A stretch of 64,000 nt of DNA from positions 558,001-622,000 of the forward strand of contig NZ_SOAU01000001.1 in the NCBI RefSeq assembly GCF_004364865.1, read 5' to 3'. Both the position numbers and the translations under genes were made by a program. The notes below the pieces were generated by a model. The model did not search any database and was not told the DNA's origin. It saw nothing but the letters and a program-made list of their open reading frames with translations. The DNA comes from Ilumatobacter fluminis. Its GTDB lineage: Bacteria > Actinomycetota > Acidimicrobiia > Acidimicrobiales > Ilumatobacteraceae. The first letter of the stretch is position 1; each line of letters starts with the position of its first letter. This document shows positions 50,394-63,675 of this stretch, piece after piece.

Positions 50394-50447
50394 GTCGGGT
50401 GATCTCCGGAAACGTCGACTCCGTCGCCGTTCCCTACGACACCCGAC
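50394..50447. repeat. nested palindromic repeat F, right copy flanking the molybdenum hydroxylase gene
   Basis: Outer arms GTCGGGTG and CACCCGAC. Same core as element E with one base gap and few changes. Its right arm overlaps the last codons of the convergent alpha/beta hydrolase gene, including its stop codon region (50434-50436). Confidence 0.78.
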
Positions 50448-51288
50448 CCGGTTCTCGCGAGAGGTGGGTGAGGAGGGCTTCGTCGAAGCGGGTGGGTTGT
50501 TCGATGTTGGGGGAGTGGCCCGCGCCTTCGATCTCGACGAACGTCGCGTGGGGGATGGCGTCGCGGAGCGCCTCGGCGCCCTCGCGCAACCGAGCGATCT
50601 CGAACTCGCCCACCATGATCGTGGTCGGCAGCTCGACCGTCCGCACCGCCGGCCGGAGATCGTCGTGTTCGTTCAGGTGCGCACCGAACGCCACGAACGC
50701 GGCCGGGTCCATCGACGAGACCGATCGTTCGAGCCCCGCCAACCCTTCCTTGCGGTCTACCGTCGTCCGGTCGGGCGCGGAACCCGTCTTCACGTGGCGA
50801 AGGACGGGCGACGTCCACCGGATCAGGCGGGCGACGCCGAGCCGATAGCCGAGGAAGCGACGGACGCGGTCGGCGCGAATCGAATCGCCTCGACCGGGCA
50901 GTGGGGAACAGTCGACGAAGACCACCGATCGCAGACGTTCCGGGTCGCGGGTGGCGATCAGCTCCGCCACCAGCCCGCCCATCGAGTGCCCGACGAGGTG
51001 GACGGTCTCGTCGATCAACCCGTCGATCACCGCCAAGGCGTCTCGGTACAGGTGCTCGAACGTGTAGCTCGCCTCGTCGCCCGTGTTGGTGGAGCGGCCG
51101 TGGCCGCGATGGTCGGGCCGGACGACACGGAAGCCTGCATCGACCAGCGCCTCCACGTTGGCGTTCCACTGTTCGCCGCTGCCGAGGAACCCGTGGAGGA
51201 GCACGACGGGCTCACCGTCGGACGGGCCGTCGATGGCGACGTGGATCTCGACGCCCGGTTCGACCGTGACCCCGAATCGCTCCGTCAC
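50434..51288 (-). CDS. alpha/beta hydrolase
   Basis: A 284-residue hydrolase from GTG 51288 (GTGA overlap with the sulfatase). Oxyanion HGF in LLHGFLGSGEQW, nucleophile Ser in VGHSMGGLV and catalytic His in EGAGHSPNIEQP. Last gene of the leftward TetR-peptidase-rhamnosidase-sulfatase operon, so it may cleave an ester released by the earlier steps. The final residues and stop lie in repeat F. Confidence 0.88.
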   Translation of the reverse strand: MTERFGVTVEPGVEIHVAIDGPSDGEPVVLLHGFLGSGEQWNANVEALVDAGFRVVRPDHRGHGRSTNTGDEASYTFEHLYRDALAVIDGLIDETVHLVGHSMGGLVAELIATRDPERLRSVVFVDCSPLPGRGDSIRADRVRRFLGYRLGVARLIRWTSPVLRHVKTGSAPDRTTVDRKEGLAGLERSVSSMDPAAFVAFGAHLNEHDDLRPAVRTVELPTTIMVGEFEIARLREGAEALRDAIPHATFVEIEGAGHSPNIEQPTRFDEALLTHLSREPGRVS

Positions 51289-52796
51289 GACGAGGCCTTC
51301 GCTGCGATCCAGGCGAGCATGTCGCGCTGACCTTTCGCCTGGGCCTCGGTCATGATCCCGGCCTCCTCGAGTGTTGCTCGCCCTTGCCGGCCGACGACGA
51401 GTTCGCCAACGGCGACGTAGCCCTCTTCTCGACCGTCGAGCGCCGTCACGAGCTCGCCCCGGAGGCGCTCGAGTACCGGGCCACCGTCGGGAGCGAGATC
51501 GTTGCACTCGGTCGGATCGGTCGCGAGGTCGAACAGCTGCTCTCGGCCCGAGCGGGGGAACCACACGTACTTGTAGCGACCGTCGGTCACCCACTGGTTG
51601 TCGTCGTCCACCTCCGAGCTGAACGCCCAGTTGAAGTGCTCGCCGTGGAGGACGTCGCGCACCGACGAGGCGTCGCCCGCGGTGAGCGGCAGCATGCTGT
51701 GACCGTCGGCGGCGTCGGGTGGCTCGACGCCCGCCACGTCGCACAGGGTCGGGAGCACGTCCATCAGTTCGACGACGGCAGACGATCGGCGCACCTCGTG
51801 CGGGCGGCCGGGAAGTCGCATCATCATGGGCACCCGAGCCGACGCCTCGTACGGGAGATTCTTGGCGACGCGCCAGTGGTCGTAGAGCATCTCGCCGTGA
51901 TCGCCGACGAGCACGAATGCCGTCGTCTGCAAGAGGTTGTGCTCGGTGAGCGCCTGGACAAGCCGGTTGAGTTCGTGGTCGATGGCGGTCAACTGGGCGT
52001 AGTAGCCGCGCCGAGCCCGGTCGATCGCGGTCGGGCTCGTCGGGACCGGGCTGTCGAGGAAGTAGCCCGGCCGTGGCGGGGCATCCCGGTCGTTCCAGTC
52101 GGCTTGGACGAGCGGCGGCACCGTGACGTCGCGGTAGCGGTCGAGTGCCCACTGGGGTGGATCGATCGGTGGGTGGGGCCGGTGGAAGGACACCTTCAGG
52201 AAGAACGGCATCGTCGGGTCGCGTCGACGGAGGAAGTCGACGGACCGGCTGACCGCCCACGCGTTCGGATGGAGTCGGTCGTCCATCGGCCATGGGCGGA
52301 CGTCGTATCCGTTGCACCCGAGTGCGGCGTCGACGATGTCGGCCTCGGCGTGCGACCGGAGGCGGAGCCAGGTGCGGTAGTCGTCGACCTGGTCGAAGTT
52401 GTCGAGCTTGCGTCGCTCGTCGATGGTGTAGCCGTCGTGGAGGTCGACGTCGTGGAAACCCATCCGGCGGCGCGCCGGCCAGACGTGCATCTTGCCGACG
52501 GCGTGGCAGAGGTAGCCGGCGTCGGCGAGCACCGAGGCGAGCGTGAACGGATAGTCCCACGACACCTCGGGGTGGTAGCCGACGCGCCCGTGCCGTCGAT
52601 GGTTCAGCCCGGTGAGGAGCGAGGCGCGAGCGGCGATGCAACTCGGCACGGCGGCGTACGCACGGTCGAACACGGTGCCTTGTTCGAACAGCATGTCGAT
52701 GTTGGGCGTTTCGACGACCGGGTGGCCCTCGATGCCGAACGAGTCGGCTCGCCACTGGTCGACCATCAGCATGACGATGTTGGTGTCGCGGCTCAT
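51285..52796 (-). CDS. type I sulfatase
   Basis: A 503-residue arylsulfatase-like enzyme. N-terminal IVMLMVDQWRAD supplies metal ligands; the formylglycine site is Cys 53 in PSCIAARASLLTG (C-x-A-x-R variant); later GKMHVW and VLVGDHGEMLYDH fit the alkaline-phosphatase fold. The Cys needs a formylglycine-generating enzyme, not in the window. No signal peptide, so it acts in the cytoplasm. ATGA overlap with the rhamnosidase. Confidence 0.9.
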   Translation of the reverse strand: MSRDTNIVMLMVDQWRADSFGIEGHPVVETPNIDMLFEQGTVFDRAYAAVPSCIAARASLLTGLNHRRHGRVGYHPEVSWDYPFTLASVLADAGYLCHAVGKMHVWPARRRMGFHDVDLHDGYTIDERRKLDNFDQVDDYRTWLRLRSHAEADIVDAALGCNGYDVRPWPMDDRLHPNAWAVSRSVDFLRRRDPTMPFFLKVSFHRPHPPIDPPQWALDRYRDVTVPPLVQADWNDRDAPPRPGYFLDSPVPTSPTAIDRARRGYYAQLTAIDHELNRLVQALTEHNLLQTTAFVLVGDHGEMLYDHWRVAKNLPYEASARVPMMMRLPGRPHEVRRSSAVVELMDVLPTLCDVAGVEPPDAADGHSMLPLTAGDASSVRDVLHGEHFNWAFSSEVDDDNQWVTDGRYKYVWFPRSGREQLFDLATDPTECNDLAPDGGPVLERLRGELVTALDGREEGYVAVGELVVGRQGRATLEEAGIMTEAQAKGQRDMLAWIAAKASS

Positions 52797-55114
52797 TGAG
52801 ACTCCTCGATGGTGTGACGACCGGCGCAGTACTCGGTTCCCCGGTGGACGAAGGGAACGGGCGAGTCGACGACGGTGCGGCCGCGTTCGGCCCACACCTC
52901 GATCGGGCCGTGCGGTGTCGGCACCGATGCATCGACCCAGTCGAGGTCGCCGAGCGCCGGCGCGATCGACGCCATGGCGAACCCGGGTCGTGCAGGCGTC
53001 ACCCCGGCCACGTGTTGGACGAGATCGCGGGTCGGCGTGCTCGACCACCCGTGGCTGATCGTGCCGCCGAACCACGTTTCGGTCCACGACGTCGGGCATC
53101 GTTCGAGCGCGACCTCCCATCGCCTGCAGCGCTCGACGATCAGGTCGGCCCGTCCGGCGGCCGCCAAGGCGTCGTGGACGACGTACGAGAAGAAGGGCTG
53201 GGCGACGACGAGTCCGTCCACGTCCCACCACGGCTCGGGGTGTCCCTGACGCAGGTAGGCACCGCCGACGTCGAGGCCGCTGTTCGGTGACGCCTCGCGG
53301 CCGGGAGCCGACCAGGTCGCCCAGACCCGGCCCTCCGACGCTTGCAACACGTCGACGAGGCGCCCGACTCGCTCGGCGGGCACGACGCCGCCGACGAGCG
53401 CTGCGGCCTGGCCGTGTTCGGAGGCGGTGCGCCGTTCACCCGAGTCGGTGGCCGAGCGCCCGACGATCGAGTCGACGTAGCGTCCGCGCCCGGCGTCCCA
53501 GAAGGCCTCGAATCCGGCACGCAGACGATCGTGGCGCGCTCGGGCCCAGCTCGCCCGACCGGTATCGCCGAGCCAGTCGGCCATCTCGGCGAACTCGCGC
53601 ACTGCCCGCGCCAGCAATCCGTTGAGCGCCGATGAAGCGCCACGCGTGTCGATCGCCGACCAGTCGATGATCACCCAGCCGTAGACATCGCGGACGAGGC
53701 CGGTGTCGTCGGTGAACGGTTCGAACCACCGCACGACACCCTCCACCACGGGGAGCAGTTCGGCGATCTCGTCCCGATCGCCGACGTACCGGTACAGGTT
53801 CCACACGGCGTGAACCCAGTGCAGCGCCCAGTCGGGGATGATCGTGAAGTCGACCGCTTCGGCGTCGCCGGCGACCGCCATCGGCAACATGCCATCGGGG
53901 CGACGGGAGTCGGCGATCAGGCGCACATTGTGGCGTGCCAACAGCCAGTCGTCGCTGGTCGTCAGATCGACCAGTTGGTGGACCACGAAGTCGCCGGTCC
54001 ACGCTCGCTGCTCGCGAGTGGGGCAGTCGGTGTACGCGTCGGTGGAGTTGAGCGACACCGATCGTCGGCCCACGGCGTGGATCGTCTCGAGCGCTGCATC
54101 GCTGCACGCGAATCGGTGGGCGCCGGCGGGATACAAGCGTTCGACGATCGACACTGCGTGCACGGTCACACCGTCGTCGGCGGCGACCAGCGCACCCTGA
54201 CCGCCGTACCGGTCGAGTGACTCGACGACGCGACGTGTGCCGTCACACACGATGCGGACTGCGGCGTCGTGCTCGGTCGGCGTGGGCCAGCCGTCGATCG
54301 ACTCCTCCGCCACGCGGATCGTCACCTCGCCACCCGCCGGGCCGTCGACCTCGACGAGCAGCGTGCCGGCGACGATCCGGTCCGTGCTCCACGCAGTGTC
54401 GTCGACGGCCGCCAGTTCGACCGGTCGGGTCGTGAGATCGCTGATCGGCCTCGCGCCGAACGGGCCGATCGGATACGACGGAGGCGTGCTCCGCCCGGGC
54501 TCGCCGACGGCGTGTGCACGACGTACCACCGCCGCACCGGTCACGCCATCGGTCGCCCACTCGCTCCCGAGCGACCGTGCATCGATCGTCTCGATGCCGC
54601 GACCGGACACACCGGCTGCGGGTGTCGACCCCCACCCGTCGAGCACCGATCCCGACCAGGCCTCGTCCGTCACGAACCATCGGTCGCCGAGGTCGGCCTC
54701 GAGCACGAACGCGCCGTTCGCGAGATCCGTCGCGAACGGGGGCATCGGCAGGTACCACGGCGTCGCCCCGGCATACGTCAGAGCGAGGACGGCGATCCGG
54801 TTCGTGCCGGGAGTCAGGTGCGGCGCGAGGTCGGTGACCTCGTACGGCTGACGTCGGGGGTTCGACCGGATCGGCCCTCGGCCCACCTCGACGCCGTTCA
54901 CGTAGACGACCGCCCGCGACACGGCGCACCAGCGCGCGGGGACCGTGTCGGGAACCTCGTCGAGCACGAGCTCGGCCGTCAGGGCGACCACGTGCCGCTG
55001 TGCTGCGGGCGCGCCGTCGGCCCAGATCCACGATGCGCGCCACGGTCCGCCCGGGAAGTCGGGTGTGGTCCGCTCGAGCGACACGCTGCCGCTCGCTGTT
55101 CGTCCGTTCGTCAT
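52793..55114 (-). CDS. GH78 alpha-L-rhamnosidase
   Basis: A 773-residue glycosidase. N-terminal beta-sandwich domains (about 20-330; ASWIWADG, VYVNGVEVGRGP) precede the six-hairpin catalytic barrel with DCPTREQRAWTGD at 363-375, the GH78 motif holding acidic catalytic residues. C-terminal beta domain about 690-773. It removes terminal alpha-L-rhamnose. No secretion signal. In an operon with sulfatase and hydrolase, it probably strips an imported rhamnosylated, sulfated compound. Confidence 0.87.
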   Translation of the reverse strand: MTNGRTASGSVSLERTTPDFPGGPWRASWIWADGAPAAQRHVVALTAELVLDEVPDTVPARWCAVSRAVVYVNGVEVGRGPIRSNPRRQPYEVTDLAPHLTPGTNRIAVLALTYAGATPWYLPMPPFATDLANGAFVLEADLGDRWFVTDEAWSGSVLDGWGSTPAAGVSGRGIETIDARSLGSEWATDGVTGAAVVRRAHAVGEPGRSTPPSYPIGPFGARPISDLTTRPVELAAVDDTAWSTDRIVAGTLLVEVDGPAGGEVTIRVAEESIDGWPTPTEHDAAVRIVCDGTRRVVESLDRYGGQGALVAADDGVTVHAVSIVERLYPAGAHRFACSDAALETIHAVGRRSVSLNSTDAYTDCPTREQRAWTGDFVVHQLVDLTTSDDWLLARHNVRLIADSRRPDGMLPMAVAGDAEAVDFTIIPDWALHWVHAVWNLYRYVGDRDEIAELLPVVEGVVRWFEPFTDDTGLVRDVYGWVIIDWSAIDTRGASSALNGLLARAVREFAEMADWLGDTGRASWARARHDRLRAGFEAFWDAGRGRYVDSIVGRSATDSGERRTASEHGQAAALVGGVVPAERVGRLVDVLQASEGRVWATWSAPGREASPNSGLDVGGAYLRQGHPEPWWDVDGLVVAQPFFSYVVHDALAAAGRADLIVERCRRWEVALERCPTSWTETWFGGTISHGWSSTPTRDLVQHVAGVTPARPGFAMASIAPALGDLDWVDASVPTPHGPIEVWAERGRTVVDSPVPFVHRGTEYCAGRHTIEESQ

Positions 55115-55135: not shown

Positions 55136-56506
55136 TCAATCGTCGGTCGGCCAGCCGGCGACGGCGTCGAGTGTCAGCTGCAGCGCAGCCAGCGCGGTCG
55201 GCACCAGTGATGGTCGGTGCACCATGTCGATCGTGTCGGCCGGATCGAACAAGTACATCGGTGCCGCCAGCAGATTCACCATCGGGACACCGGCCGGATG
55301 GAAGAAGCCGCCATCGGTCGGCGGCATGGGCCCGAACACGTCGGGCGGCAGCACCATCGATCGGTCGAGCCGGTGCTCGTCGATCGCTCGTGCGGTCGAT
55401 GCAGTCAACGCCGCGGCCTCGTCCGGGTCGGGGGCCGACACGAACCACCACCGCACCTCGGGTCGATCGGTCGGCCGGATGCCGCCGTCGCCGTCGGGTT
55501 CGGCCTCGACGGCGATGTGTTCGAGGTGGAGAGCGAACCGGACACGATCGAGATGCGGCCACGAGGCGATGAACGCTCGTGTGCCGGCGCCTTCGGACAT
55601 GTGCGCGGCGGTGAGCAGGAACGCGAGCGAGATCGGTCGCTCGTCGGCGGGGATCTCCGACCAGGCCGCGGCTTGGGCGAGCACCTGTGCGATGCCGGAG
55701 CCGTCCTCCACGGCCGACGCCCACGGAGCGTCGTGGTGGCTGCCGATCACGACCCACTCGTCGTTGGTCGGCGACGGTGCCGTGGCGATCACGTTGTGGT
55801 CGACGGTCTCCCGGTGGTCGACGGTCGAACTGATCTCGACCGTCACGTCGCCCTCCTCGACGAGTTCGTCGAGGGCGGCGCCGCTGTCGCGATCGATCCA
55901 GACGGCGGGGAGCGGGCGGACGACACCGTCGTACGGGACGAAGTAGTCGGACGTCGACCACGGCGCGTCGACGACGCCGACCATCGCTCCGGCACCCGAC
56001 GCCACGACGACGTCGATCTCCTTGCCGAGCGCGCTGCCGAACGGCAGCACGTGGACGTGACTCGCGAACTCGCCGGCCGGGTCGTGGCGGGCGAGGATCC
56101 CGTTCTCGAGCAGCGACGTCGGTAGCGCCGTCAGCCGCACGTGTTCGAGGGCTGCATCGTCGGGATCGAGTCGATCGTCCGACGCCCGGTTGCGCAGACG
56201 GAAGCGTGCTCGATCGGTTGCCGTGCTGAACGGCATGGTGAGCCCGTGGACTTCGAGCCGTCGACTCGGCTCGGCGGTCAGCCACGCGGTGACCATCGCC
56301 GGGCCGGGATGGGAGGTCAGCGTTCGGACCGGTTGTAGCTCGACGTCGTAGCCCATCCGGCCGAACTCGGCGGCGAGCCATTCGACGGTGCGTGCGTTCT
56401 CGTCGGTGCCGGGGCGCCGAACGCCGAGTGCGCACACCGCATCGATCCACGCGAGCTGCTGATCGGCGTCGGGCACGGCGGCGGCGAGGCGGTCGAACAG
56501 ACTCAT
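55136..56506 (-). CDS. M28 peptidase-like protein with altered metal site
   Basis: A 456-residue protein with the M28/PA-domain layout: N-terminal cap, PA-like insertion (about 90-235) and the metallopeptidase fold starting VVIGSHHDAPW. The first ligand pair HHD and DGSG are kept, but the usual EE pair is replaced by HMSEG (in LTAAHMSEGAGTRAF) and the C-terminal YHT motif reads YLFDP. It may not be a normal aminopeptidase. ATG 56506 overlaps the TetR stop. No signal peptide. Confidence 0.75.
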   Translation of the reverse strand: MSLFDRLAAAVPDADQQLAWIDAVCALGVRRPGTDENARTVEWLAAEFGRMGYDVELQPVRTLTSHPGPAMVTAWLTAEPSRRLEVHGLTMPFSTATDRARFRLRNRASDDRLDPDDAALEHVRLTALPTSLLENGILARHDPAGEFASHVHVLPFGSALGKEIDVVVASGAGAMVGVVDAPWSTSDYFVPYDGVVRPLPAVWIDRDSGAALDELVEEGDVTVEISSTVDHRETVDHNVIATAPSPTNDEWVVIGSHHDAPWASAVEDGSGIAQVLAQAAAWSEIPADERPISLAFLLTAAHMSEGAGTRAFIASWPHLDRVRFALHLEHIAVEAEPDGDGGIRPTDRPEVRWWFVSAPDPDEAAALTASTARAIDEHRLDRSMVLPPDVFGPMPPTDGGFFHPAGVPMVNLLAAPMYLFDPADTIDMVHRPSLVPTALAALQLTLDAVAGWPTDD

Positions 56507-57246
56507 GTCGGGTCGCCGCCGTCGAACCACGTGCTGCCGGCACGATCGGCTCGGAGCGCTGCCAACGTCGGAGCGATCGCCGCCTCGAGGAACGCGACCA
56601 CGTCGTCGAGCGACAACTCATGGTGTTCGTCCCACCAACGGCCGACCGACTGGACGGCACCGGCGATGAGGTGGGCGATCGCTTCGATCTCCCGGTCGCC
56701 GGGTTCGACACCGGCGTTGAGATGGCCTCGCCTCACCGATTCGGCGACGATCGCGACCTGTTGCTCCTGCAGGCGTTGGACGGCGTCATCGACGGCGCTG
56801 TGCTGGCGGGAACCGAACACCGGGCCCCAGAGCCCGGCGTGATCGCGGGCATACGAGAGGAACGCTCGGATGCCGGCGGCGAGTGGCGTGTCGGTCTCGG
56901 CCGTCGCCACGGCGATGTTCTGCGCCATCTCGGCGCTCGCCAGGTCGACCACGGCGGCGAAGAGCCCCTCCTTCGATCCGAAGAGTCCGTAGACGACGGG
57001 CTTGGTCACGCCTGCCGCGGTGGCGATGCGATCCATCGACGCACCCTCGAACCCGTCGTTGACGAAGGCGATCGCTGCGACGGTCAGGACGTGCTCGCGC
57101 CGAAGGTCGGTCGGAACCGACCGTGGTCCGAACCGTCCGACCTGGTCGTTCAGTTCGTGCGCTCGTGTCTCGAGTCGGGCGAGTCGGGTGTCGGCGGTGG
57201 CCAGGATCGTGCTCCGTGTGTCGAGCCGCTCGACCCGATTGGACAA
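56503..57246 (-). CDS. TetR-family transcriptional regulator
   Basis: A 247-residue repressor. The helix-turn-helix (about 50-95: HVLTVAAIAFVNDGFEGASM, GVTKPVVYGLFGSKEGLF) is preceded by an unusually long, charged N-terminal arm of about 45 residues. The only suitable start for the full arm is TTG 57246, without ribosome site. It diverges from the lipoprotein importer with palindromes between, so it probably represses both arms of the locus until its substrate arrives. Confidence 0.87.
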   Translation of the reverse strand: MSNRVERLDTRSTILATADTRLARLETRAHELNDQVGRFGPRSVPTDLRREHVLTVAAIAFVNDGFEGASMDRIATAAGVTKPVVYGLFGSKEGLFAAVVDLASAEMAQNIAVATAETDTPLAAGIRAFLSYARDHAGLWGPVFGSRQHSAVDDAVQRLQEQQVAIVAESVRRGHLNAGVEPGDREIEAIAHLIAGAVQSVGRWWDEHHELSLDDVVAFLEAAIAPTLAALRADRAGSTWFDGGDPT

Positions 57247-57257
57247 GCGGCGTAAGT

Positions 57258-57289
57258 TACCGGCAGTATATTGAATCTACCGCCGGTAG
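57258..57289. promoter_or_regulatory. candidate TetR operator in divergent promoter
   Basis: Two overlapping dyads: TACCGGC-N18-GCCGGTA (outer, 57258-57288) and the perfect palindrome CTACCG-C-CGGTAG (57277-57289). It lies 11 bp before the TetR start and 32 bp before the lipoprotein ATG, in the 74-bp divergent gap. The TATATTGAAT stretch between the arms could be a -10 region. Confidence 0.6.
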
Positions 57290-57320
57290 TTAAAGCCGGA
57301 GCGTTTCACGAGGGGAACCC

Positions 57321-58811
57321 ATGCAGCACGCCACCACCGCCCGAGGACGTCGTCGAGTCGCCGTCGCCGCACTCGTCGCCATCGCAGCAGCGTGCTCGAC
57401 GCCCGCCGAGGACGCCGACGACACCGACGACGCCGACGTCAGTACGGATGATTCTGCTGCGACATCGGCGCCGGCCGACGACGAGGGCGAGTCGAGTCCC
57501 GACCCGACGGACGGAACGACCGCCGGCACGACGGCCGGCACCACGACCGACACGACGGCAGACACGGCGACATCGGGCGACGGGACGGGCGACACGCCGG
57601 CGACCTCGGCGCCCGCCGACGACGAGCCGGCCGGACCGGCAACGCTCGACCCGGTCACCGTTGCGGTGATGTACCCCGACCTCTCGGTCGCAGCACAGTT
57701 CGGATTCGCCGAGGAGATCGGAGACTTCACGCCGGTGTTCGAGGCGTTCGCCGCCGACGCGAACGAGCGAGGCGGCATCGCCGGACATCCGATCGAGCTG
57801 GAGATGGTCGAGTTCGACCTGCTCGTCGACGGCGACGCCGTCAGCGCCTGCCTCACGGCCACCCAGGATCTCGACGCCTTCGTCGTGATCGGCCTCGGCG
57901 GCGTCTACGGCGACCCGGTCGTGTGCGTCGCCGAGCAGAACGAGACGCTCCTGCTCCAGGACGACGGCTCGCCCGCCGAGTTCTACGAACGTGCCGACGG
58001 TCGCCTGTTCAGCCTCACGCCGAACAAGGCCGAGTCGCAGGTGGCCATCGTCGACGCGTTCGCCGACGAACTCGCCGCCGCACCGTTCGCCGTGTTCGCG
58101 ACCCTCGACACCGGCGGCGACTACGACACGATGCAGGAGTACCTGCTCCCCGCGCTCGACGGGGCCGGACTCGAACCCGCCGTGGTGGTCGTGATCGACA
58201 GCGACACCGACGTCGCCGCCAGCCAGATCCCGATCGAGGTCGAGGAGATCCGTGCCGCAGGGGTCGAGAACGTCATCGCGACGCCCGGCTTCTTCTCGAC
58301 GGCTGCGTTCGCGCAGGCCCTCGACGCCGGAGGCGTCGACGTCCGCTGGATCGGCAGCGACGCCGGCGGCTTCGCGAGCGATCTCTACGCCAGCCAGATG
58401 CCGCCGGCGCAGATGGACGGGGCCCTGGCCATCACGACCCGAACCGTCGGTTGGCGTGCAGCGGGGCTCGACGAACCCGCGAGCCGACTCGACTGCCGAG
58501 AGCGTGCCGCCGAGCTCGTGCCCGACGGTGACTTCTCGACCGAGTCGATCGACGTCGCCGCAGCGGTCCCGGCGTGCAACTTCGTCGACCTGCTGGTGCT
58601 CGCCGGTCAGGGCGTCGACGGCGACCTGACCACCGAGTCGCTCGCGACGGCCATCCACGGCCTCGCCGAGCTCGAGCTGGTGGAACGCGGCCCGTCCGGC
58701 TTCGGCATCGACAAGTTCACCGCCGCCGACGAAGCCCGCACGATCGAATGGTCGGCCGACTGCGAGTGCTGGACCGCGATCAGCGACTTCGAACCGCTGT
58801 TCGCCGAATGA
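57321..58811 (+). CDS. Liv-type ABC substrate-binding lipoprotein
   Basis: A 496-residue protein. Lipobox AIAAAC with Cys 25, a long Asp/Thr/Ser linker (about 26-115), then a periplasmic-binding-protein fold of the branched-chain amino acid type (ADANERGGIAGHPIELE, ASQIPIEVEEIRAAGVENVI). Four or more cysteines in the mature domain could form disulfides. GAGGGGA precedes ATG 57321. It captures the ligand for the fused permeases behind it; ATGA overlap with the next gene. Confidence 0.85.
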   Translation: MQHATTARGRRRVAVAALVAIAAACSTPAEDADDTDDADVSTDDSAATSAPADDEGESSPDPTDGTTAGTTAGTTTDTTADTATSGDGTGDTPATSAPADDEPAGPATLDPVTVAVMYPDLSVAAQFGFAEEIGDFTPVFEAFAADANERGGIAGHPIELEMVEFDLLVDGDAVSACLTATQDLDAFVVIGLGGVYGDPVVCVAEQNETLLLQDDGSPAEFYERADGRLFSLTPNKAESQVAIVDAFADELAAAPFAVFATLDTGGDYDTMQEYLLPALDGAGLEPAVVVVIDSDTDVAASQIPIEVEEIRAAGVENVIATPGFFSTAAFAQALDAGGVDVRWIGSDAGGFASDLYASQMPPAQMDGALAITTRTVGWRAAGLDEPASRLDCRERAAELVPDGDFSTESIDVAAAVPACNFVDLLVLAGQGVDGDLTTESLATAIHGLAELELVERGPSGFGIDKFTAADEARTIEWSADCECWTAISDFEPLFAE

Positions 58812-60928
58812 CCGCCACCGACGAACCCGGTACCGACGACCGCCAGGCCGTCGCCGACGAGCCGCCGTCGACCGCCCTGGGCCCGCGCGCGGCCGTCAAG
58901 GCCGGCGGTGTCGGAACCGTGGCGATCCTGAGCGGTCTGGCCACGGTGGACGAGCTCGACAACGCGCTGCTCGGCATCTTCGCACCCGAGATCCAGGACG
59001 CGCTCGGGATCAGCACGACCGGGCTGGCGGCCATCGGGACGGCCTCCGGTGCCGTCTTCGTTGCCGGCGCGATCCCGATCGCCCGACTCGCCGATCGCAC
59101 GAACCGCAGCGTGATCGCCGTGGTGGCCACGGTGATCTGGAGCGCCTCACTTGCGCTGCTCGGCTTCGTTCAGAACGTGTTCCAGTTCGTGCTCAGTCGC
59201 GTGGTGACCGGACTCGGCAAGTCGAACACACTCCCGATCCACGGTTCGATCCTCGCCGACGCATATCCCGAGGAGGCCCGAGGGTCGGTGTACGCGATCC
59301 ACGGCGCCTCCGGCCCGTTCGGCCGAGTCCTCGGCCCGCTCACGGTCGCGCTCCTCACCATCGTGATCACCGGCGACGACGCCTGGCGAACGATCGCGCT
59401 GATCGCCGCGATCCCCCCGTTCGTCATGGCGGGTGTCGCCGCGGTCTGGTTGCGCGAGCCCAAGCGTGGTGCTCACGAACGCGAGCGCGTCCTGGGCTCG
59501 GCGGCGGCTCTCGACACCGACGAACAACCGATCGCGATGTCGCTCGCCTTCGAGCGAATCCGACGCATCGCCACCTTCGACCGGATCGCGACCGGCATCG
59601 GTGTCATCGGGTTCACCATCTTCAGCGTTCCGATCTTCGTCAGCCTCGTGCTCGAAGACCACTTCGGGCTGAGCGCCGGGGAACGCGGCGTGATCGGCAC
59701 GGTCGGGGCCGTCGTGTCGCTCGTCGCCGTACCCGTCGGAGCGACCATCGGCGGCAAGATCTACGCCCGCGACCCGGCCCTGCTGCTCCGGATCATGGGC
59801 GTCTCCGTCGTGGTCACCAGCGCACTGCTGTCGATCGCGGTGTTCATGCCCAACGCCGTGCTCTACACGATCGTGGCGTCCGCCGGCGGCGCGATCAGTT
59901 CAGCGGCGTTCGTCACGTTGTTCGTCATCGTGTCGTCGATCGTGCCCGCGAACCTTCGCGCCCAGGGCTTCTCGCTCATCGGTGTGTACGTGTTCCTGAT
60001 CGGCGGATTCTTCGGTTCGATCGTCGCCGGCATCGTGGCCGACTCGATCGGGACCCGGCCGGCGATCCCGGTCGTCCTGCTGCCCGCGGCCATCGTCGGC
60101 GGCGTGCTCATCGCGAGCGCAGGACGCACCGTCCACGCCGACATGCAACGAGTGAGCGACGACCTGATCGAGGCTGCCTCGGAGCAGGAGCGACGGGCTC
60201 GCACCGGTGAGCACCCCGTGCTGCAGGTCAAGGACCTCCACGTCTCGATCGGCACGGTCCCCATCCTCCACGGCATCGATCTGGAGGTGAACGACGGAGA
60301 GATCCTCGCCATCGTCGGGACGAACGGATCGGGCAAGTCGACGCTGCTGCGCTCGATCTCCGGCCTGCAGAGCGCCGAGCGAGGCGTGATCCGCTTCGGC
60401 CCCACCGACATCACCCTGCAGTCGGCTCACGCACGGACCCGGGCCGGCATCGTCCAACTCGCCGGAGGTCGCTCGAGCTTCGGCCCGTTGACGGTTCGCG
60501 AGAATTTCGAGGTCGGCGGTCTGCACCTCGACGACGAGGTCCGACGCCGGCGCGTCGACGAGGCGCTCGAACTGTTCCCCGAACTCGATCGACTCCTCGA
60601 CCAACGCGCCGACCGGCTGTCGGGAGGTGAGCAGCAGATGCTCGGCTTGGCGAGAGCGCTGCTCCTCGATCCCGATCTGTTGCTGATCGACGAGCTCTCC
60701 CTGGGCCTGGCGCCGGTGGTCGTCGGCCGCCTCGTCGGCACCCTCGACCGGATCCGAGCCGACGGCACCGCGATCGTCATCGTCGAACAGTCGCTCAACG
60801 TCGCCGCCGCAACCGCAGACCGCGTCGTGTTCCTCGATCGTGGTCGCGTGCTGTTCGACGGTGCGGGCGACGACCTCCTCGCTCGACCGGATCTCGCCCG
60901 CGCCGTCTTCCTGGGAGGCGGCGCGTGA
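58808..60928 (+). CDS. MFS transporter fused to LivF-type ABC ATPase
   Basis: A 706-residue fusion. Residues about 30-445 form an MFS carrier: some 11-12 hydrophobic segments, PIARLADRTNRS matching the MFS loop 2-3 motif, and SRVVTGLGKSNTLPIHG. From about 469 a complete ATPase of LivF type follows: Walker A GTNGSGKST (about 504-512), signature LSGGEQQ (about 605) and DELSLGLAP. There is no frameshift or stop between them. ATG 58808 overlaps the lipoprotein stop; GTGA overlap with the next gene. This unites secondary and ABC transport parts in one chain; role inferred to be import. Confidence 0.87.
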   Translation: MTATDEPGTDDRQAVADEPPSTALGPRAAVKAGGVGTVAILSGLATVDELDNALLGIFAPEIQDALGISTTGLAAIGTASGAVFVAGAIPIARLADRTNRSVIAVVATVIWSASLALLGFVQNVFQFVLSRVVTGLGKSNTLPIHGSILADAYPEEARGSVYAIHGASGPFGRVLGPLTVALLTIVITGDDAWRTIALIAAIPPFVMAGVAAVWLREPKRGAHERERVLGSAAALDTDEQPIAMSLAFERIRRIATFDRIATGIGVIGFTIFSVPIFVSLVLEDHFGLSAGERGVIGTVGAVVSLVAVPVGATIGGKIYARDPALLLRIMGVSVVVTSALLSIAVFMPNAVLYTIVASAGGAISSAAFVTLFVIVSSIVPANLRAQGFSLIGVYVFLIGGFFGSIVAGIVADSIGTRPAIPVVLLPAAIVGGVLIASAGRTVHADMQRVSDDLIEAASEQERRARTGEHPVLQVKDLHVSIGTVPILHGIDLEVNDGEILAIVGTNGSGKSTLLRSISGLQSAERGVIRFGPTDITLQSAHARTRAGIVQLAGGRSSFGPLTVRENFEVGGLHLDDEVRRRRVDEALELFPELDRLLDQRADRLSGGEQQMLGLARALLLDPDLLLIDELSLGLAPVVVGRLVGTLDRIRADGTAIVIVEQSLNVAAATADRVVFLDRGRVLFDGAGDDLLARPDLARAVFLGGGA

Positions 60929-63675
60929 GTGTCGACCTCGTCACGATCGGCCTGATCACCGGGACGACCTACGGCCTGCTCGGCATCGGCCTCGCCCTCA
61001 TCTACCGGCTCGACCGGATCCTCAACCTCGCCCATGGCGAGATCGGCGCCTTCGGAGCGGCAGTCGTCGCGGTGCTCTCGATCCGGTACGGCTGGCCGTT
61101 CATCCCCGCGCTCGTCGTCGGCGTGCTCGGCGGAGCCGTCCTGGGTGGCCTGACCGAACTGGTCGTCATCAAGCGGCTCGGTGATCGTTCTGCCGTCGTC
61201 GTGATGGTGGCGACCCTCGGGGCAGGCCAACTGGCGTCACTCCTGCGGGTATCGCTGCCGGGCGTCGAGATGTTCGCCCCGTTCCCCACCCTCACGACGT
61301 CGACGTTCGCCATCGGCTCGCTCGAGTTGACCGGCGCCGAACTGGGGGCGCTCGTGTTCGCGCCGACGATCGCTCTGGCGGTCTGGTACGTCCTTGCTCG
61401 CACCACCGCCGGGGCAGTGGTGCGAGCGACATCGGCGAATCCGGAGGCGACTCGCCTCGCCGGCGTCAACGCGGCGGCCGTGTCGACGGTGGTGTGGGTC
61501 GCCGCCGGCGCGCTCGCCGCATTGGCGGCCACCGTCGCCATCCCGCTGCGGGGTGGGACGGCGGTGTCGATCGCCACGATCGGGCCGGGACTGCTGCTGC
61601 GCGGCTTCGCCGCGGCGGCGTTCGGGCGATTCCGGTCGGTCCCGATGACGCTCGTCGGCGGGCTCGTGCTCGGCGTCGTGGAAGCGTTGGTCATCCGGTG
61701 GTCGTCCGACCCGGGCGCCGCGAACCTCGTGGTGTTCCTCATGGTGATCGTCGGCCTGGCGACGCTCCCTCGTGACGCGAACAGCGACCCGGTGCGTCCC
61801 ACCGAGACGGCGCGTGCCTGGAGCGACTGGCCGTCGACGTGGCGAGTGCGAGCGGTCCGGTACGGGCCGCCGCTGTGCGGCGCCGCAGCACTCGTCGCGG
61901 CCCCGTACGTCGTGACCTCCGCCGGCAACACGTTCCAGCTCGCCCGCCTGGCGACGTTGGTGCTCGTCGTCGTGTCGGTCACCGTCCTCGCCGGGTGGTC
62001 GGGCCAGGTGTCCCTCGCCCAGTACGCACTGGCCGGGATCGGTGCGATCGTCTCGGCGCGGGTCGTCGAGGAGGGGTCGTCGTGGGAGGTGTCGCTGATC
62101 GCCGGTGTCGTCGTCGCGGCCGCCACCGCCGGGCTGGTCGCGCTGCCGACGTCCCGGCTGAACGGATCGATGCTCGCGATCGCCACTCTCGGACTGTCGG
62201 TGTTGGCCCCGGCCTGGCTCTTCCGGTTGGGCGTGACGGGTGAGTCGCTGGTGTTCGAAGTTCCCCGCGTCGACTTCGGATTGTTCGAGCTGCGTCCTCA
62301 GCGTGCCTACTACTTCTTCGTGCTGACCGTCGGCGCCGTGGTGCTCGTCGCGATCCGGGCGCTCGGCGCCCGAGCGACCGGTCGGCGTTGGCGAGCGGTT
62401 CGTGACAACGACCGCGCGGCCGCTGCGATGGGTGTCAGCCCGTGGCGGGCGCGGGTGTCGGCCTTCGTCGTCACCGGCGCACTCGCCGGACTGGCAGGTG
62501 GCCTGCTGGGTGGCCTGCTCGTCAACTTCCGTCGGGGTGAGTTCGCCGCCGAGGACTCGATCGAGGTGGTGGTCATGGCGGTGATCGGTGGGCTGGGGTC
62601 GATCGGAGGTGCGGTACTCGGCGTGCTGTACGTGGGTGCGCTCCCGGCATTCTTCTCCGACCTCCAGAGCTTGCAGCTGCTCGTGAGCGGCGTCGGCCTG
62701 CTGGTGCTCCTGCTCTACTTCCCGGACGGGCTCGTGTCGGTCGTGCGTCGCGTCCAGCAGCTCGCGGCCGGCCCGCCACTCCCGTCGGCCACCGGCGGTC
62801 GGGACGACTCGGTGGAGCTCGTCGTGCACGACACCGGCACCGACGACACCGTCGACACCGGCACCGTCGGCGATCACGCCGGCCGGGGGAGCGAGGTGGC
62901 GATCGAGGTGACCGACGTGGCGGTGGAGTTCGGTGGGTCGCGGGCCGTCGATGCAGTGAGCCTCACGATCGAGCGCGGGTCGATCGTCGGCCTGATCGGT
63001 CCGAACGGTGCGGGGAAGTCGACGCTGCTCAACACCATCAGCGGTTTCCAGCCGGCCGACGGGCAGTTCGTGATCGATGGCGTCGACGTCACGAGGTGGA
63101 GCGCCGACCGCAGGGCACGGGCCGGACTCGGCCGGACCTTCCAGGACGCCCGGCTGTTCCCTCAGATGACGCTTCGGGACACCGTCGCCGTCGCTGCCGC
63201 CGGACGGGAACGGTCGAGCGTCCTGCTCGACGGTCTGCTCCCGCCGCGCGCCCGGCGCTCCGAACGTCGCATCGCCGAGCGAACCGACGCCGCCATCGCG
63301 CTCACCGGACTGTCCGGCTACGCCGACCGCCCGTGTTCGGTGCTCAGCACCGGCACCCGTCGATTGGTCGAGATGGCGTGCCTGGTCGCCGGAGGGGGTC
63401 GGGTCCTCCTGCTGGACGAGCCGACCGCCGGGCTGGCACAGCGTGAGGTCGAAGCGTTCCCGGTTCTGCTCCGGTCGCTGCGCGACCGCCTCGACGCGAC
63501 CATCGTCATCGTCGAGCACGATGTCGCGATGTTGGCGCAGGTGTGCGATCGTCTGGTCTGTCTCGAACTCGGGCGCGTGATCGCCGACGGAACGCCCGAC
63601 GACGTTCGCCACGACCCGGCGGTCGTCGAGTCGTACCTCGGCACCGACGCCGTCGCCGTCGATCGATCCGGATGA
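60925..63675 (+). CDS. LivH-LivM-LivG fusion (branched-chain-type permeases plus ATPase)
   Basis: A 916-residue protein from GTG 60925. LivH-like permease about 1-290 (GLALIYRLDRILNLAHGEIG), LivM-like permease about 305-625 (AGWSGQVSLAQYALAGIGA; GLGSIGGAVLG) and LivG-like ATPase about 656-905: Walker A GPNGAGKST, FQDARLFPQMT and LLLDEPTAGL. The signature is unusual, LSTGTRR (about 807) instead of LSGGQ. With LivF in the previous protein this supplies a full Liv transporter in two membrane proteins. Confidence 0.9.
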   Translation: MSVDLVTIGLITGTTYGLLGIGLALIYRLDRILNLAHGEIGAFGAAVVAVLSIRYGWPFIPALVVGVLGGAVLGGLTELVVIKRLGDRSAVVVMVATLGAGQLASLLRVSLPGVEMFAPFPTLTTSTFAIGSLELTGAELGALVFAPTIALAVWYVLARTTAGAVVRATSANPEATRLAGVNAAAVSTVVWVAAGALAALAATVAIPLRGGTAVSIATIGPGLLLRGFAAAAFGRFRSVPMTLVGGLVLGVVEALVIRWSSDPGAANLVVFLMVIVGLATLPRDANSDPVRPTETARAWSDWPSTWRVRAVRYGPPLCGAAALVAAPYVVTSAGNTFQLARLATLVLVVVSVTVLAGWSGQVSLAQYALAGIGAIVSARVVEEGSSWEVSLIAGVVVAAATAGLVALPTSRLNGSMLAIATLGLSVLAPAWLFRLGVTGESLVFEVPRVDFGLFELRPQRAYYFFVLTVGAVVLVAIRALGARATGRRWRAVRDNDRAAAAMGVSPWRARVSAFVVTGALAGLAGGLLGGLLVNFRRGEFAAEDSIEVVVMAVIGGLGSIGGAVLGVLYVGALPAFFSDLQSLQLLVSGVGLLVLLLYFPDGLVSVVRRVQQLAAGPPLPSATGGRDDSVELVVHDTGTDDTVDTGTVGDHAGRGSEVAIEVTDVAVEFGGSRAVDAVSLTIERGSIVGLIGPNGAGKSTLLNTISGFQPADGQFVIDGVDVTRWSADRRARAGLGRTFQDARLFPQMTLRDTVAVAAAGRERSSVLLDGLLPPRARRSERRIAERTDAAIALTGLSGYADRPCSVLSTGTRRLVEMACLVAGGGRVLLLDEPTAGLAQREVEAFPVLLRSLRDRLDATIVIVEHDVAMLAQVCDRLVCLELGRVIADGTPDDVRHDPAVVESYLGTDAVAVDRSG

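Follow-up and report, generated by a model that had tools for sequence, protein, structure and literature searches.

A Spinster-like MFS domain joined to the LivF ATPase in a Liv-type importer operon of Ilumatobacter fluminis and related bacteria

Introduction

What does a membrane carrier of the major facilitator superfamily (MFS) do when it is built into the ATPase subunit of an importer of the ATP-binding cassette (ABC) type? Primary (ATP-driven) and secondary (gradient-driven) transport normally reside in separate proteins; here they are joined in one chain. The question is raised by a locus of Ilumatobacter fluminis in a stretch of 64,000 nucleotides (positions 558,001 to 622,000 of contig NZ_SOAU01000001.1, assembly GCF_004364865.1), which is called the window throughout. 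At positions 57321-63675 of the window, three open reading frames (ORFs) with 4-bp overlaps encode a binding lipoprotein, an MFS-LivF fusion and a LivH-LivM-LivG chain. An inspection of the DNA alone (the sequence-only reading) had proposed this arrangement, and its coordinates and overlaps hold. In our view there is an even chance that the locus encodes an ABC importer of the Liv type to which a second membrane carrier is rigidly attached. The evidence for the fusion, its distribution and the constraints acting on it are given first, and the alternatives are weighed in the Discussion.

Results

The MFS-LivF fusion and its operon

The operon consists of the following parts (window coordinates).

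57321..58811, + strand: Liv-type substrate-binding lipoprotein, ORF of 496 amino acids with a lipobox-like AAAC seen by eye
58808..60928, + strand: MFS-LivF fusion, 706 amino acids from ATG, overlapping the binding-protein ORF by ATGA
58883..60127, + strand: Spinster-like MFS domain, about residues 26-440, with 12 membrane helices in the helix list of the model
60131..60205, + strand: linker helix from membrane helix 12 to LivF, residues 442-466, from the secondary structure of the model
60221..60928, + strand: LivF ATPase domain with Walker A GTNGSGKST, signature LSGGE and Walker B with DE
60925..63675, + strand: LivH-LivM-LivG chain, 916 amino acids, overlapping the MFS-LivF ORF by GTGA
about 60925-61779, 61855-62754 and 62899-63645, + strand: LivH, LivM and LivG subdomains, respectively, of the 916-residue chain

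Pfam recognized MFS_1 at residues 47-403 of the fusion (7.7e-38) and ABC_tran at residues 487-629 (2.9e-28). The structural model of the fusion (mean predicted local distance difference test score (pLDDT) 86.2, predicted template modelling score (pTM) 0.81) contains 12 membrane helices as counted from its helix list, the last of which spans residues 416-440 and is followed by the helix 442-466 ending just before LivF. Its MFS half matched Spns1 (9boi) with Z 39.3 over 409 residues. Spns1 and Spns2 were the best matches, with SV2A and SLC37A4 trailing them by no more than about 1 Z unit, so that the fold alone does not separate these from Spns. The LivF half matched the Thermotoga ABC ATPase 1ji0 with Z 32.2 over 239 residues. 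The 50 Foldseek matches listed came from ABC proteins; the likeness of the MFS half comes from the separate structural comparison. Domain searches, model and structural matches together bear out the earlier claims that the MFS part is complete and that it is joined in frame to LivF inside a full Liv system. The H-switch position of LivF is Q661, which is invariant in 20 aligned rows.

In the 916-residue chain, Pfam detected BPD_transp_2 (PF02653) in two stretches (2.8e-58), ABC_tran and BCA_ABC_TP_C. The single-sequence Pfam search with the binding protein of 496 residues gave no match; a profile of 13 sequences, including that of the window, led to Leu/Ile/Val-binding-type proteins in the PDB (3lop, 1.7e-10; 4n03, 2.8e-07). 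With the NCBIfam models, the LivF domain of the fusion scored 172 bits, below the cut-off of 441 (best matches UrtE and LivF), and the LivG domain 192 bits, below the cut-off of 362 (best matches LivG and UrtD). As judged by these domain and profile matches, all five Liv parts (binding protein, LivH, LivM, LivF and LivG) were shown to be present at the locus.

The sequence-only reading had itself raised the possibility of a sequencing error joining two normal genes. We consider the chance of such an artefact, whether a frameshift or an assembly error, practically negligible. The host genome is a single contig of 4.78 Mb with 99.97% completeness, and the fusion is in frame in all 80 loci retained from the scan described below and in further genomes of several families. 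The relatives thus refute the artefact; what look like splits in two of them (L091 and L209) are stretches of N in the assembled sequence and not natural.

Distribution of the fusion

Two architectures were distinguished: type A, the form found in the window, consists of MFS-LivF and LivH-LivM-LivG, and type B of LivH-LivM followed by MFS-LivF-LivG. A search with the complete fusion protein yielded matches at E <= 1e-50 in 26 of 61 genomes, that of I. fluminis among them. For G043, G054 and G055 the match covered LivF only, so that both halves are matched in 23 of 61. Within the class, no fewer than 42 of 149 genomes, counting that of I. fluminis, carry the fusion (E <= 1e-66; 7 candidates scored per genome). 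At least 18 of 396 genomes of the phylum, own included, matched at E <= 1e-65, a lower bound since 2 candidates were scored per genome. Nine full-length fusion copies were found in one genome (G048). The supposition that such a fusion is unusual does not stand up to these counts.

The genome of I. fluminis harbours a second fusion, which is of type B with separate LivH-LivM (L074; G000:C1:2777104-2779086). Among nine other genomes of the genus (18 candidates scored per genome), one (G003) matched and its locus is of type B; because of this, the operon of the window is patchy in its distribution. In the plasmid collection, a single record matched, a 5.7-Mb replicon of Embleya, which belongs to another class and has the same order of binding protein, MFS-LivF and LivH-LivM-LivG. 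No match to the fusion was found among viral contigs.

When named genomes were scanned with an alignment restricted to the MFS half, 119 loci were confirmed, and the best 80 of them were retained. The MFS half is fused to LivF in 80/80 of these best loci, a figure that describes the clade of the fused relatives from which the scan patterns came. By record title, the loci belong to Actinomycetota, mostly Acidimicrobiia, to a few unplaced bacteria and to four metagenome-assembled genomes (MAGs) of Bifidobacterium breve. The ORF immediately downstream, on the same strand, contains LivH in 74 loci, and the other 6 reach a contig end. In all 74 uncut loci, LivH thus follows the fusion, and in 67 the downstream ORF is a complete LivH-LivM-LivG; this is how the earlier question of whether LivHMG always follows was answered. 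A relative of the binding protein is present somewhere in 75 of the 80 loci, most often upstream on the opposite strand; in the 5 loci devoid of it, the fusion begins within 1.3 kb of a contig end. The records titled Bifidobacterium breve (L192, L194, L204 and L205) carry an operon typical of Acidimicrobiia-type records, and their names look wrong.

History of the fusion

The fusions L094 and L226 have MFS-LivF spacings of 50 and 44 residues. The sister group of their MFS halves consists of unfused proteins (support 100/99), and further unfused proteins part these halves from the main group (100/98). This branching points to a second, independent fusion event; one ancient fusion followed by many losses is an alternative history that the tree does not exclude. 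The MFS domain was probably split off, or fused, more than once within type B, because unfused proteins nest within the type-B part of the MFS tree. This tree comprised 53 chosen representatives and the tree used for grouping the operons 32; trees and counts exclude domains below set lengths, duplicate domain sequences and the exporter ATPases of L073 and L077. A LivF tree was set aside as a source for numbers of MFS gains and losses, since it includes short duplicate loci from the I. fluminis genome and labels L005, a locus of insufficient length, wrongly as MFS-free.

Two unfused MFS relatives adjoin importer genes. The one in L092 diverges from a gene group that includes a four-part Liv fusion, and the one in L093 (528-5362) closely follows, on the same strand, genes for two BPD_transp_2 permeases and an amidohydrolase. 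A general location of unfused MFS relatives beside ABC importers was not upheld. In 20 further stretches, L209 and L226 aside, no LivH or LivM domain was found; several of these stretches stop near a contig end. The Arg-rich N-terminal extensions preceding some unfused LivF ORFs are, by eye, over-long ORFs and not extra domains.

The linker between MFS and LivF

After correction for the model ends, the MFS and LivF profiles lie 18-22 residues apart in 114 of the 120 fusions. This distance amounts to 19-22 residues in 85/88 type-A and to 18-20 in 29/32 type-B proteins, with an interquartile range of 1. The LivF-LivG spacing ranges from 15 to 83 residues in 32 proteins with the MFS domain and from 16 to 101 in 15 proteins lacking it (interquartile ranges 23 and 26). 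At the level of sequence, a linker constrained to this degree speaks against a loose tether.

Gating residues of the MFS half

The best sequence match of the MFS-half profile in the PDB was 6e8j (1.5e-33), which we take to be HnSPNS. Its D41, E129 and D142 fit the numbering of PMC9440201, the available part of which describes Glu129 as the intracellular proton switch, Asp41 as a second protonation site and Asp142 as a member of the motif-A relay. In mycobacterial MsSpns, Glu126, Asp38 and Asp57 are the residues named in the part available (PMC13192786). In the protein of the window, as aligned in the match to 6e8j, K138 occupies the position of Glu129, while D51 (the Asp41 equivalent), D96, R97, R100 and D151 are kept. 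R100 and D151 are present in all 122 tabulated fused copies (the fused copies number 123; L049 is absent from the group table of 122). D96 of motif A is present in 109/122, namely in all members of A1 (75/75), of type B (32/32) and of the second fusion (2/2), and in none of the 13 members of A2 (L041, L024, L046, L097, L052, L053, L020, L036, L057, L099, L098, L100 and L208). To judge by these residues, a change of conformation seems possible in most of the fused MFS halves.

Evolutionary rates and covariation

Rates were compared in 23 type-A operons (39 before dereplication); operons missing one or more of six parts, or at a distance below 15% from one already kept, were dropped. Mean identity was lowest for the binding protein (26%) and highest for the two ATPases (62% each), with MFS at 42%, LivH at 43% and LivM at 46%. 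The MFS half thus diverges at the pace of LivH and LivM and not at that of the ATPases. When the ATPases were controlled for, the partial correlation with the binding protein was 0.23 for MFS (p 0.04), 0.20 for LivH (p 0.015) and 0.33 for LivM (p 0.005). The strongest partial partner of MFS was LivG (0.45, p 0.005). The permutation test is approximate (200 shuffles) and several pairs were tried. Covariation of these sequences gives modest support to a role of the MFS half in cargo handling and none to a special tie to LivF.

Divergent neighbours and possible cargo

The operon is flanked by a divergent group of genes, separated from it by a palindromic region.

57248..57298, no strand assigned: 25-nucleotide imperfect palindrome (76%, 1-nucleotide centre) between the divergent gene groups
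57277-57289, inside the region 57248..57298: perfect 6+6 palindrome
56503..57246, - strand: TetR-type regulator, divergent (PF00440, 3.9e-12)
55136-56506: protein of 456 residues between the TetR and GH78-like genes, no Pfam match at E 1e-5
52793..55114, - strand: GH78-like protein (alpha-L-rhamnosidase family), divergent group (PF17389, 1.4e-26)
51285..52796, - strand: sulfatase, divergent group (PF00884, 1e-44)
50434..51288, - strand: alpha/beta hydrolase, divergent group (PF00561, 2.9e-30)

The palindrome at 57248..57298 is a candidate TetR operator. The genes behind tetR, encoding the protein without a Pfam match, the GH78-like protein, the sulfatase and the hydrolase, have overlapping or closely spaced ends. 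The GH78-like protein is probably cytoplasmic, since no signal peptide was seen by eye. It shares 60% identity over 766 aligned positions with a protein encoded next to the Embleya fusion operon; the MFS-LivF proteins of the window and of Embleya are only 41% identical. Because a GH78-like partner of such identity adjoins the Embleya operon, a rhamnose-type, perhaps sulfated, glycoside is, to judge from the neighbours, most likely the cargo of the system in the window.

Other members of the family would carry other cargoes. In the type-A operon of L068 (3976-17328), an adenosine deaminase gene lies between the binding protein and the fusion, and three genes of the nucleoside hydrolase family (one assigned by Pfam, the others by BLAST grouping) are nearby, which suggests a nucleoside importer. 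Cargo-type neighbours elsewhere are GH78 and GH2 in L062, GH78 in L064 and sulfatases in L072. Beyond the binding protein and the blocks common to close relatives, no conserved neighbours were found across the family.

Discussion

The reading to which we give even odds may be outlined as follows. The binding protein would hand its solute to LivHM, which would import it at the expense of ATP. The MFS half, located in the membrane beside LivHM, would offer a related solute another route across it, for instance by letting out a breakdown product, and the rigid helix would tie the movements of this half to the LivFG cycle. We infer both that the MFS half transports a solute and that this transport is coupled to ATP. 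For the window, the GH78-like enzyme and the sulfatase would cleave the imported glycoside intracellularly, and the TetR protein probably sets the expression.

Several observations weigh against this reading. Glu is found at the proton-switch position in none of the 123 fused copies and Asp in four. This loss cannot be ascribed to the fusion, as we had considered, since the unfused relatives mostly lack the residue too (Glu in only 2 of 25, i.e. 26 rows minus the gap-split L209). All 13 members of A2 lost D96 and mostly also the equivalents of Asp41 and Arg122, and the fusion was kept; because the gating residues are lost there, this clade has probably left ordinary carrier function, which speaks for a non-carrier role there. 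MFS-free versions of both Liv chassis exist, so that the ABC part does not need the MFS domain; single-chain LivH-LivM-LivF-LivG proteins of 1234-1253 residues occur in L092 (11360-15097), L108 (3946-7650) and L125 (4924-8685). Because of such chassis, the MFS half is, on present sequences, an optional but long-kept part. With LivH and LivM added to the controls, the correlation of MFS with the binding protein falls to 0.17 (p 0.09); that of MFS with LivF, the other parts being controlled, is 0.08 (p 0.24). The LivH-LivM and LivM-LivG linkers are fairly constant too (interquartile range 4 each), although their extremes (40-71 and 24-168 residues, respectively) are wider; constancy of length is thus no peculiarity of the MFS-LivF linker. 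An in-frame GTG at the start of LivF, noticed by eye, could in principle give free LivF. As to the cargo, a GH78 neighbour was present in 4 of 128 loci of at least 9 kb (all locus kinds, window included), as found with a profile built from these same four loci, no fifth having turned up; three of the four form one clade (100/100), and the window stands apart on a long branch. Finally, transport data for any member of the family were not found.

Part of this evidence favours the main rival, according to which the MFS half is a sensor or brake that would bind the cargo or its product and switch the LivF ATPase on or off via the helix. The clade of 13 that keeps fusion and operon despite its lost gating residues, the absence of the proton-switch Glu from 123/123 fused copies and a constrained linker, which suits signalling, all agree with such a function. 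Sensor-kinase-MFS fusions are moreover a known class, TC 2.A.1.34, according to the available part of PMC3924187; judging by the name, MFS is there likewise joined covalently to another module, which is a kinase there and an importer ATPase here. A pure sensor, however, need not keep D96, R100 and D151 as most copies do, nor would its divergence at permease speed be expected. We regard the sensor as possible but doubtful. It is rather unlikely, in our opinion, that the MFS half works as a carrier on its own, for the same solute or a related one, and is tethered merely for co-expression and co-location. The existence of unfused relatives close to importer genes (L092, L093), the dispensability of MFS for the chassis and the lack of a special link between LivF and MFS distances all speak for tethering. 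A loose tether would nevertheless be expected to vary like the LivF-LivG linker, and the MFS-LivF linker hardly does; furthermore, the other unfused relatives mostly lack Liv genes nearby, with none in the stretches fetched for L088, L211 and L212 and only weak LivG- or LivH-like matches at least 3 kb away in L089. A bolder version of coupling, in which the LivFG cycle drives or gates Spinster-like alternating access through a helix of fixed length and so energises the MFS carrier by ATP, seems to us distinctly improbable. If true, one ATPase pair would power two unrelated transport folds, replacing the absent proton switch.

Compared with the Liv/HAAT importers, which we take to be TC 3.A.1.4, the system shares the type-I binding protein, two BPD_transp_2 permeases, a LivF-like ATPase and a LivG-like ATPase with BCA_ABC_TP_C. 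It differs from them in the MFS domain borne by LivF and in the single LivH-LivM-LivG chain, and neither ATPase reaches the curated equivalog cut-off for orthology with E. coli LivF or LivG (172 vs 441 and 192 vs 362 bits, respectively). With the Spinster proteins HnSPNS, Spns1 and Spns2 it has in common the complete 12-helix fold, the equivalents of Asp41 and D142 and, in most copies, motif A; unlike them, it has a fused ABC ATPase and a replaced Glu129 switch. The sequence-only reading had reckoned with the architecture being widespread and already described. The first proved true; as to the second, no description of an MFS-LivF fusion was found in the titles and abstract starts of the papers listed from the open literature (subscription journals and TCDB lay outside this scope), and the fusion terms had zero occurrences in the available part of PMC2448597. 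Domain databases may list the architecture. The system is a widespread and apparently undescribed variant of the Liv importer.

The spacing between the MFS and LivF halves has been kept within a few residues across two architectures, and the halves have, it seems, been fused at least twice. With this fusion it can be tested directly whether two transport folds can be under the control of a single ATPase. The finding also bears on the uptake of organic matter by Acidimicrobiia, most of which are known here from MAGs.

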